From: a virus | DNA length: 44,374 bases | Strand: one strand, 5' to 3' | Virus record (IMG/VR): IMGVR_UViG_3300027973_000083 | Span: 1-44,374 of that record | Shown here: positions 30,803-44,374 of the stretch, in pieces | How positions within the stretch are numbered: the stretch's first letter is position 1 | Layout: every line of letters begins with the position of its first letter | Program-made: the position numbers and the translations under genes | The notes under the pieces: model-generated | Told to the model about the DNA's origin: nothing | Databases searched by the model: none | Seen by the model: the letters and a program-made list of their open reading frames with translations, nothing else

Positions 30803-30968
30803 AAAGCAACTCGACACGCCGTATATAGAGCCTATGTCTATGTGATATACACCACATCGATCCCCTAGAAAAAAGTTATCCACAGGGTGATGTGTATAAG
30901 TAATGTGATGTACCTCATATGTGACTAATCTCACAATGTCCGATTTACACCATTTATACCCCTCAAAA

Positions 30969-30990
30969 TGTCAGACCCCCCTGCTACAAT
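30969..30990 (+). promoter_or_regulatory. TGTCAG-N10-TACAAT promoter
   Basis: Box 30969-30974, spacer ACCCCCCTGC, -10 30985-30990. No canonical -35 is present 17 bases upstream. Drives the operon from 31048. Confidence 0.75.
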
Positions 30991-31047
30991 TACAGTATAA
31001 AGAAAAACAAGCGGTAAAGAAATCCGCTAAAGAAAGGTGGTCATAAA

Positions 31048-31230
31048 ATGACTACATTAGAAAAAATGACAGTATGCGTTGAGCATAACCCTATGAAATC
31101 CGCTATCTCTGAGGTAATGGATACACAATACACTTTCTGCCAAGATTGTGAAAATAACATTGAGCGTTGGTATAACGATACCGACCCTGAGCGTCTGCCT
31201 ATGTGGACAGATTGGAAGGTGTCTAAGTAA
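31048..31230 (+). CDS. small Cys/His protein
   Basis: 60 residues; TVCVEHNPM and FCQDCENN could bind zinc. AAAGAAAGGTGG is the ribosome site. First gene of a seven-gene chain in which each start overlaps or abuts the previous stop. Confidence 0.6.
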   Translation: MTTLEKMTVCVEHNPMKSAISEVMDTQYTFCQDCENNIERWYNDTDPERLPMWTDWKVSK

Positions 31231-32065: not shown

Positions 32066-32146
32066 AAAAATCCTAGCAAAAAGTTATCCACAGGGGTGTG
32101 TATAACCAATGTGAGATTAATCACATACGACACGCCGTGTTTAGAT

Positions 32147-32175
32147 TTGACTTTTTGACATTTCTTTGCTATACT
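32147..32175 (+). promoter_or_regulatory. sigma70-type promoter
   Basis: TTGACT (32147-32152), 17 bases, TATACT (32170-32175), with TGC just before the -10. Confidence 0.65.
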
Positions 32176-32274
32176 TACATAGTAAGAACAATTAAATAAA
32201 GACATTAGCCAATGAGCCTAAGCAAATAAGTGTGAGATAAATCACAATGCGCCTTAGCAAATAAGTGGCAAAAA

Positions 32275-32296
32275 TGTCAGCCCCCCCTGATAAGAT
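32275..32296 (+). promoter_or_regulatory. TGTCAG-N10-TAAGAT promoter
   Basis: Box 32275-32280, spacer CCCCCCCTGA, -10 32291-32296. Confidence 0.7.
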
Positions 32297-32325
32297 AGTC
32301 TTATCACTTAAAGAAAGGTCAAATA

Positions 32326-33334: not shown

Positions 33335-33475
33335 AAAGATTTTCCTAGCGTGTCGTCCACAGGTTATCCACAAGTCATTTAAGAAGTTATTTACGACACG
33401 CCCGAAATTTTGTGAATTTTATCACATAGATTGAGCGTCTTACTATTTGGAATTACTCAGCAGTAGGTAGATAAA

Positions 33476-33497
33476 TGTCAGCCCAAAATGATAGGAT
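33476..33497 (+). promoter_or_regulatory. TGTCAG-N10-TAGGAT promoter
   Basis: Box 33476-33481, -10 33492-33497, TGA before the -10. Drives the operon from 33531. Confidence 0.65.
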
Positions 33498-33530
33498 TAC
33501 ATAGTAATAAGATAAAGAAAGAAGGCAGAA

Positions 33531-36450: not shown

Positions 36451-36706
36451 AAAGTGGAGGGCCTAGCAAAATCCTAGCGCAAAACTTTTGGTTTGTCAAG
36501 CATTTACGATGTGTTTAAGATCACACCCAAAACCCCTCCCGATTTGACATTTATGACATTTTTGTGCTACACTTATACTATAAACAAAACAAAGTAAAAC
36601 TAAATAAACAGTTCTCACATAATGAGATTATCAGATAATAATTTGATAAATGTCAGTAGGAAATGTTATACTTAGGTATTACCCAAACAGAAAAGGAAAA
36701 ACAAAA
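36451..36706 (+). promoter_or_regulatory. intergenic cassette 5 with stacked promoters
   Basis: Two CCTAGC motifs (36461 and 36473 on), GGTTTGTCAAG (36490 on), imperfect palindrome TGTGTTTAAGATCACA (36510-36525), TTGACA-N18-TACACT (36543-36572), then TGTCAG-N10-TATACT (36651-36672). AAAAGGAAAAAC precedes ATG 36707. A short alternative start at 36650 would lie on the promoter, so I reject it. Confidence 0.65.
36651..36672 (+). promoter_or_regulatory. TGTCAG-N10-TATACT promoter
   Basis: Box 36651-36656, spacer TAGGAAATGT, -10 36667-36672. Confidence 0.7.
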
Positions 36707-38214: not shown

Positions 38215-38328
38215 CTCTTTTCCCTCAAAATTTTCCTAGCGTGTCGGTGTGATATTTATCACATATGTTTAAGATCACATTTAAGAAATGTCCGAATTGC
38301 CCTATGTCTGGCTATACGATTTGACTTA

Positions 38329-38350
38329 TGTCAGCCCATACTGCTATACT
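38329..38350 (+). promoter_or_regulatory. TGTCAG-N10-TATACT promoter with a -35
   Basis: Box 38329-38334, spacer CCCATACTGC, -10 38345-38350; TTGACT at 38321. Confidence 0.75.
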
Positions 38351-38379
38351 TGAAATTCAACAACAGAAAGAAGGAAATC

Positions 38380-43087: not shown

Positions 43088-43129
43088 CGCATGCAAAAAA
43101 GCGCTAGAATTTTGATATGATACCATGGA

Positions 43130-43263
43130 CAAACCATTTTGTCAAACCTTATTACGATCCAATCCAAAAAAGTCCCTGAAGTTCCTAGCATATCAAACCA
43201 CATTTGTCAAACCTTATTACGAACGCAATCAAATTTTTCCCAAATCGTGCTATAATGGTTTGT
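43130..43263 (+). promoter_or_regulatory. CAAACC operators and promoter
   Basis: Two similar blocks, 43130-43165 and 43194-43231, each contain CAAACC twice and TTGTCAAACCTTATTACGA. TATAAT (43251-43256) is 7 bases before ATG 43264, with another GGTTTG between. Confidence 0.6.
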
Positions 43264-43518
43264 ATGAGTCCAAGATCACACTTTGCAGATTACGCTAAAA
43301 GAAGTCCTAAAGAATATCAGGCATTCACAGATTCTGTTTGGAACTCCTTTGTTAGTGTTACTCACATGATAGGTTTGTCTAAGTTCTTTTCTTTCACTCC
43401 CGCCCTAGAAATCATTAATGATCCTATCAAAGACGGCGAAGCCGTGGGCGCAGCCCTTGGGGAGATCTACCAATTTTCCAAGGGGATTCAAATAGATACA
43501 CCAAACCAACCCCTATAG
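43264..43518 (+). CDS. hypothetical protein under CAAACC control
   Basis: 84 residues from ATG 43264, leaderless-looking. HFADYAKRSPKEYQAFTDSV, then SKFFSFTPALEIIND. Could be a small regulator; no DNA-binding motif is evident. Followed by a strong terminator. Confidence 0.55.
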   Translation: MSPRSHFADYAKRSPKEYQAFTDSVWNSFVSVTHMIGLSKFFSFTPALEIINDPIKDGEAVGAALGEIYQFSKGIQIDTPNQPL

Positions 43519-43595
43519 AATAACAAACCTTTTCTCCTGGTTTTCTATAAATAACATATAGGTTTGTTTAAAAAACATTACGATTATCGACAATT

Positions 43596-43622
43596 TCTCC
43601 CTGGTTTTGGGAGATTTTTTTT
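43596..43622 (+). terminator. intrinsic terminator
   Basis: TCTCCC, loop of 7, GGGAGA, then eight T. The clearest terminator of the window. Confidence 0.85.
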
Positions 43623-43635
43623 GCATGAAATGGGC

Positions 43636-43716
43636 TTGACAAACCTTACAAGATAGGATACAATGCCCAAACCATGCATATTAAGGTTTGACAGATATGA
43701 AGGTTTGCGATATAAT
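43636..43716 (+). promoter_or_regulatory. tandem promoters overlapping CAAACC/GGTTTG sites
   Basis: Promoter A: TTGACA (43636-43641), N17, TACAAT (43659-43664); the -35 runs into AAACC. Promoter B: TTGACA (43688-43693), N17, TATAAT (43711-43716); its -35 is inside GGTTTGACA and another GGTTTG lies in the spacer. Further GGTTTG copies follow to 43756. Confidence 0.75.
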
Positions 43717-43722
43717 CCCGCT

Positions 43723-43839
43723 ATGAAGGTTTGGGGATATGAAGGTTTGAGGTTTGGGATTACGACGCCCCTTCGTATAAATGCTCCATCCTCCACTACT
43801 CTCCACAATGCTCCACTTCTACTCTGTCTAATAATATAA
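43723..43839 (+). CDS. possible 38-residue leaderless peptide
   Basis: ATG 43723 lies 6 bases after TATAAT of promoter B. The reading frame (MKVWGYEGLRFGITTPLRIN start) uses the operator repeats as codons and then a pyrimidine-rich stretch, so composition is not convincing. It may be a leader peptide or no gene. Confidence 0.25.
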   Translation: MKVWGYEGLRFGITTPLRINAPSSTTLHNAPLLLCLII

Positions 43840-43854
43840 TCAGTAAGATTATTC

Positions 43855-43875
43855 TGTGGATAAACCTGTGGATAA
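43855..43875 (-). promoter_or_regulatory. two DnaA boxes
   Basis: TGTGGATAA at 43855-43863 and 43867-43875, the reverse of TTATCCACA, 3 bases apart, just before the GNAT promoter. Confidence 0.65.
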
Positions 43876-43881
43876 CTATGA

Positions 43882-43910
43882 TTGACAAACCACATCTGCG
43901 AGTATATACT
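43882..43910 (+). promoter_or_regulatory. promoter of the GNAT gene
   Basis: TTGACA (43882-43887), N17, TATACT (43905-43910); the -35 again runs into AAACC. ATG 43917 follows 6 bases after the -10. Confidence 0.8.
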
Positions 43911-43916
43911 TAGAAT

Positions 43917-44374
43917 ATGACTATTCAAATATCCATTCGTAATCCACAAGACGATGAGATGATCGCAATTCTCCAAACTCATTTGGCTTTCTGTATGGCA
44001 TCAACCCCAATAGAACATGTTCATGCATTAGATGTTTCCAAATTAACAACTCCAGATGTGACTGTGTTTGGAGCACAATTGAATGGGGATCTGGTTGGAG
44101 TGGGTGCACTAAGAATACTTGAGTCAGATCATGCCGAATTGAAGTCCATGCATACAATTTCCAAGGCAAGAGGGCAGGGTGTGGGAAGAGCCTTAGTTGA
44201 GCACATCTCAAATTTTGCTATTGATAAGGGCCTGTCTCGTCTAAGTCTTGAAACTGGAACAGGTGAGAATTTCAAGGCAGCAAGGGCTCTATATACCTCC
44301 ATGGGCTTTGAACCTTGTGAAGCATTTGGTGACTATGAGAACACTCAAGATAACTTGTGCATGTCAAAGAGGCT
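43917..44374 (+). CDS. GNAT acetyltransferase (3-prime end outside window)
   Basis: At least 152 residues. KARGQGVGRALVEH is the acetyl-CoA binding loop; LSLETGTGENFKAARALYTSM-GFEPCEAFGDY matches YhdJ-type bacterial GNAT enzymes that acetylate small amines or protein termini. Full-length enzymes of this kind are about 150-160 residues, so only a few codons are missing. It looks like a bacterial metabolic gene carried by the phage, with its own repressible leaderless promoter; a host flank is also possible. Confidence 0.82.
   Translation, partial: MTIQISIRNPQDDEMIAILQTHLAFCMASTPIEHVHALDVSKLTTPDVTVFGAQLNGDLVGVGALRILESDHAELKSMHTISKARGQGVGRALVEHISNFAIDKGLSRLSLETGTGENFKAARALYTSMGFEPCEAFGDYENTQDNLCMSKR

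Follow-up and report, generated by a model that had tools for sequence, protein, structure and literature searches.

In phage L5, asymmetric sites are found at promoters and beyond them, with an orientation that follows transcription (PMC9283540), and the combination of repeated initiator sites with transcription is classical for lambda and for plasmids (PMC5043065). MraZ represses its own division gene cluster by binding repeated boxes at the promoter of that cluster (PMC8475190). Here we describe a locus that can be compared with each of these, a dense field of the hexamer CAAACC/GGTTTG at the right end of a 44,374-base virus record (IMGVR_UViG_3300027973_000083, hereafter the window), which is a 44-kb fragment of a genome, so that counts given for the window cover this fragment only.

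The portal protein is 47% identical to those of Streptomyces Stanwilliamsviridae such as Yaboi and Daubenski, the nearest cultivated relatives, which we take to be lytic phages. A WhiB-family regulator was present in 17 of the 21 contigs searched, which points to an actinobacterial host, and the longer relatives carry the DnaB-type helicase, DnaG-type primase and RecA families together with a Pol III alpha-like open reading frame, recognised by inspection. The phage is probably a large, lytic actinophage. The lake actinophage DSL-LC01 was considered as a carrier of the field and rejected, as its GC content is 54%, the clusters in it consist of simple repeats and no field was seen; one of its stretches, of about 900 bp, is CACGCA/ACACGC low-complexity sequence (L041:45900-46850).

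The first-pass annotation had counted about sixteen hexamers. The cluster is real and far above chance, as 3000 dinucleotide shuffles of the same 762 bp average 0.56 copies and never exceed 4, though the true count is 17, of which 8 read CAAACC and 9 GGTTTG on the plus strand (43130-43891). No comparable density occurs elsewhere, the highest count in any other 760 bp of the window being 4. Sites are often 7-8 or 14-17 bp apart, but the arrangement is irregular overall and uses both orientations. From 109 sites in seven genomes we derived the consensus (T/C/A)CAAACC(T/A)T. A second motif, ATTACG, is interspersed (0.16 copies expected in the field), and its copy at 43759 is invariant across 40 relatives. 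The triple MraZ box, the tandem DnaA boxes and the repeated motif ATTACGA, all within the same hub, had been overlooked in the earlier annotation (Table 1).

Table 1. Features of the hexamer field and of the early-gene region, in window coordinates; functional assignments are predictions from sequence
Feature	Position	Strand	Remarks
CRP/GlxR-type sites	30920, 32110, 32231, 33411, 35254, 38248, 39552, 40807		
Predicted leftward promoter PL	43117..43145	-	TTGACA-17-TATCAT, extended -10; GGTTTG fused to -35
CAAACC/GGTTTG hexamer field	43130..43891	.	17 exact copies in 762 bp
Left putative operator cluster	43130..43213	+	CAAACC at 43130, 43143, 43194, 43208; ATTACGA interleaved at 43151, 43216
Second motif ATTACG	43151..43764	+	43151, 43216, 43289, 43577, 43759
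Extended -10 of small gene, TGCTATAAT	43248..43256	+	Hexamer right at the start site (43257-43262)
Small gene, 84-aa protein (MSPRSHFADYAKR...)	43264..43518	+	Marker gene of the field
Predicted intrinsic terminator	43596..43622	+	Ends small gene, upstream of P1
Predicted promoter P1	43636..43664	+	TTGACA(AACC)-17-TACAAT; hexamer fused to -35
Second P1 hexamer	43668-43673	+	At about +1
Predicted promoter P2	43685..43716	+	GGTTTGACA-17-TATAAT; 12/12 consensus
Triple MraZ-box array	43791..43816	-	CTCCACN4 x3 on +; GTGGAG at 10-bp spacing on -
Conserved CAGTAAGAT	43841..43849	+	Within AT-rich stretch
Two tandem perfect DnaA boxes	43855..43875	-	TTATCCACA on -
Predicted promoter P3	43882..43910	+	TTGACAAACC-17-TATACT; six bases ahead of GNAT gene start
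GNAT acetyltransferase gene	43917..44372	+	Under P3; runs off contig

Three TTGACA boxes fused to the hexamer had also been reported; the fusion was confirmed, and the window holds five such boxes, TTGACAAACC at 43636 and 43882 (both on the plus strand) and GGTTTGACA at 43685 (plus), 43148 and 43213 (both minus). Four of the five have a -10 element at 17 bp and match the sigma-70-type consensus at 11-12 of 12 positions. Additional hexamers lie at P2 (43702, 43728, 43744 and 43751). Among the relatives, a hexamer is often fused to promoter-like sequences that point leftward; the relatives also retain the TGnTATAAT of the small gene, whose transcript is by inspection predicted to be leaderless. 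The AlphaFold model of the 84-aa product is helical with a mean pLDDT of 58.7, a confidence too low to judge the protein as a DNA binder. The gene downstream of the field varies between relatives.

Relatives were collected through the 84-aa gene, giving 74 IMG/VR loci, of which 73 were examined for hexamers. In about 69 of the 73, CAAACC ranks first or near the top among hexamers, mostly with 11-22 copies, and its positions shift and flip from one relative to the next while the density is kept. In the whole contigs of relatives, six of them long, exactly one cluster is seen per genome, with background levels elsewhere. Fusion to promoter-like TTGACA sequences is specific to the field, being found for 20 of 20 such sequences inside it against 7 of 161 outside it in seven genomes, and the best promoter, P1, is near-invariant in 40 relatives in the form TTGACAAACC-17-TATAAT. 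The orientation of the hexamer follows the direction of transcription: to the left of P1, 307 of 431 sites read GGTTTG leftward, and to the right 179 of 207 read GGTTTG rightward, while the operator at the -35 of P1 itself is oriented opposite to this general rule. In one relative (L112) the last base has drifted en bloc, with 13 CAAACA against 7 CAAACC, and no change is seen in its MraZ and DnaA sites. A gene that by inspection is 2OG-oxygenase-like has been inserted in the field of L109 (3165-3795) and of L112, where it lies between the small gene and P1; the coding sequence of the inserted gene in L109 contains 5 CAAACC (0.26 expected) and 2 ATTACG. Density kept despite turnover, promoter fusion, orientation, the drift in L112 and the insert in L109 together look like the pattern of a site for a co-evolving protein. 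The earlier proposal of an operator field on promoters is thus strongly supported by conserved density with turnover, field-specific -35 fusion, orientation and the joint drift of the last base. The field presents a phage operator system that would be able to hold its density while individual sites turn over and the last base drifts.

The most conserved part of the hub is a set of three CTCCAC motifs at an exact 10-bp spacing. Of 48 representative fields, 42 have a perfect CTCCACN4CTCCACN4CTCCAC and the few others an imperfect one; each genome has one such array, always inside the field. When 84,980 bacterial and archaeal genomes were searched, the pattern turned up in 89 stretches, with many from actinobacteria. 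Eighty of these were inspected; about 65 (counted from the listed sequences) have an MraZ-like open reading frame within about 100 bp downstream, and all ten of those tested were Pfam MraZ. With at least three GTGGAG-type repeats at 10 bp, in the same pattern as at bacterial mraZ, the phage array has the features of an MraZ operator, and binding by MraZ is predicted. The mraZ gene itself was absent from the 17 phage contigs searched, which rules out a phage-encoded MraZ among them. Within a limited open-access search of the literature we found no description of a phage MraZ operator.

The same pattern occurs in at least 119 stretches of the viral collection. Among the 117 analysed, 78 have eight or more CAAACC nearby; a second group is made up of 16 that have no more than one (L149, L151, L152, L157, L161, L163, L169, L172, L196, L204, L216, L217, L223, L226, L230 and L233). 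In this group the array is preceded by a TTGACA promoter without a CAAACC field, in several members a promoter of the form TTGACATTACG about 95 bp ahead, and the members sampled at gene level have, by inspection, early genes in common with the window. The second group suggests that the array is more widely shared and that the CAAACC layer is clade-specific.

Sites for other regulators are found in the early-gene region. All eight perfect CRP/GlxR-type sites (TGTGAN6TCACA; 0.1 expected) lie there, and most long relatives have similar numbers, which may be a further sign of early genes using host regulators. A recurrent early-promoter module was also seen (30870-31050, 32080-32320, 33360-33530, 36470-36680 and 38230-38360), made up of CCTAGC..., the TGTGAN6TCACA site and (A)AATGTCAG ahead of the -10, often with a DnaA box (30876, 32084 and 33364) or with a minus-strand TTGACAAACC (36499).

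We consider it moderately probable that the stretch is a promoter hub, in which clade-specific operators are combined with sites for host MraZ and DnaA for host-state control or titration. From sequence we infer binding, the proteins that bind and the outcome, control or titration, as follows. Divergent sigma-70-type promoters would fire leftward from PL and rightward from the small gene's promoter, P1, P2 and P3. The 17 asymmetric operators would serve one sequence-specific protein, probably encoded by the phage, which at the -35 and the start site would shut the promoters and along the flanks would hinder elongation. Transcripts from P1 and P2 would run into the three MraZ boxes and the two or three DnaA boxes, where host MraZ, the repressor of the cell-division operon, and DnaA may bind as roadblocks or as competitors at the -35, and both would be titrated as phage copies rise. 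Against this stands the fact that no CAAACC binder was found, WhiB being the only known transcription-factor family in the contigs searched. WhiB itself was rejected as the binder because sites that lie far from any -35 do not suit a partner of the sigma factor.

The main rival, which we regard as rather unlikely, is that the field is a replication origin and the hexamers are iterons for a phage initiator, with the AT-rich stretch containing CAGTAAGAT as the unwinding element, host DnaA assisting, and transcription from P1 and P2 activating the opening, as in phage lambda. In most relatives two or three TTATCCACA DnaA boxes follow the array and adjoin AT-rich DNA, each genome has a single field, and the replication genes named above would suit such a role; no initiator family was recognised among the proteins scanned, and helically phased repeats were not found. 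The third-position GC skew of co-directional genes is -0.07 to the left of the field and +0.05 to the right, a difference whose sign is shared by all eight relatives measured on both sides. This local shift does not amount to proof of an origin: the far flanks have a skew that contradicts a simple bidirectional origin placed at the field. Some relatives (L102-L104) lack the DnaA boxes, other DnaA boxes are located in early-gene intergenic regions, and the hexamers are promoter-fused and irregularly spaced, unlike phased iterons. Fusion to a -35 box is also seen for DnaA boxes: in seven relatives a downstream promoter is TTGACATGTGGATAAC, with a DnaA box in the place that CAAACC takes in P3 of the window, which favours DnaA as a putative operator-binding protein here, although an origin would be compatible with it too.

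It is less probable still, and we think improbable, that the main job of the stretch is that of a decoy, soaking up host MraZ, DnaA and a host CAAACC-binding protein as phage copies accumulate, so that division genes are derepressed and host replication stalls, with effects on phage promoters secondary. What would be expected of a decoy is seen in the three MraZ boxes, which are near-invariant although no mraZ gene accompanies them and are present in the second phage group without CAAACC, and in the many sites per genome, but the sites sit exactly on promoters instead of forming a bare, packed array, and three MraZ boxes per genome make a modest sponge. The hub, decoy and origin readings overlap.

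The field had also been likened in idea to stoperators. As an idea this stands, the asymmetric sites, at promoters and farther out, being oriented with transcription, whereas a true immunity repressor with stoperators, in a temperate or pseudolysogenic actinophage, seems very unlikely. The sites are clustered in one hub and not dispersed, the nearest relatives are of lytic type, 10 contigs searched for integrases of the tyrosine type had none, and the 84-aa gene of the field gave no homolog among the 84,980 bacterial and archaeal genomes. A search for a repressor found no HTH_3 protein above cut-off in eight contigs, which are incomplete and may encode a repressor of another, undescribed family. 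A partition site for a ParB- or ribbon-helix-helix-type protein is more improbable again, as, despite the frequent short spacings, ParB_N was absent from 10 contigs and RHH_1 above cut-off from eight (incomplete) contigs. A structured RNA or sRNA with CUCC repeats was rejected (0 conserved pairs, z-score 0.29, no Rfam match).

Returning to the promoter hub, we propose, tentatively and at somewhat below even confidence, that a widespread clade of aquatic actinophages captured the host MraZ operator and DnaA boxes in one hub, so that early transcription senses or overrides the division and replication state of the host through host proteins that the phage does not encode, with the fast-evolving CAAACC sites as its own layer. 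The hub would then predict that MraZ binds phage DNA and either controls it or is titrated by it. If true, the near-invariant MraZ operator in phages without MraZ would connect lytic infection directly, in cis, with the bacterial division programme.

Dense hexamer fields are also seen in Streptomyces Stanwilliamsviridae. Birchlyn, Daubenski, Tomas, Coruscant and Jay2Jay have a GTGACA field of 14-23 copies in both orientations over 600-800 bp, mostly in the C-terminal half of a DUF2637 gene (L137:11600-13400 in Birchlyn, and L140-L143 and L145), and the GC-rich phage Kromp has 21 CGGACA inside its DUF2637 gene. These fields suggest that phages of this wider group may commonly have a single dense hexamer field. 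Their likeness to the present field is the single dense hexamer in both orientations; the hexamer is another one, lies mostly in coding sequence and is found without DnaA boxes or an MraZ array. A search for DUF2637 as a link gave no hit in the CAAACC phages, and none in the control genomes either. The start of the terminal repeat in Birchlyn (L139, 115990-116700) has an inverted pair of DnaA boxes and several ATGTCTTATATAAGACA-like palindromes. A possible further parallel is the injection-stop region of first-step transfer in T5, a phage with long terminal repeats; this region has non-coding repeats and DnaA boxes.

Compared with L5 and the cluster A phages, the hub shares the many asymmetric, transcription-oriented sites at promoters and beyond. 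Their stoperators are 13 bp, belong to a temperate phage with a known repressor and are scattered over its genome, whereas here the sites are 6-8 bp and lie in one hub, with no repressor or integrase found. With the iteron and DnaA-box origins of lambda, P1 and RK2 it has in common a repeated motif, DnaA boxes, AT-rich DNA and transcription towards it, and it differs in irregular spacing, both orientations, promoter fusion and the lack of a recognised initiator. The hub thus resembles stoperators and lambda-type origins in idea, and lacks a tested defining feature of each. Unlike the operator of bacterial mraZ and the dcw cluster, its array follows phage promoters and is accompanied by no mraZ gene, nor does any gene lie directly behind it in the equivalent direction; the GTGGAG repeats at 10-bp spacing are the same in both, in a pattern identical to that found directly upstream of mraZ in many bacteria.
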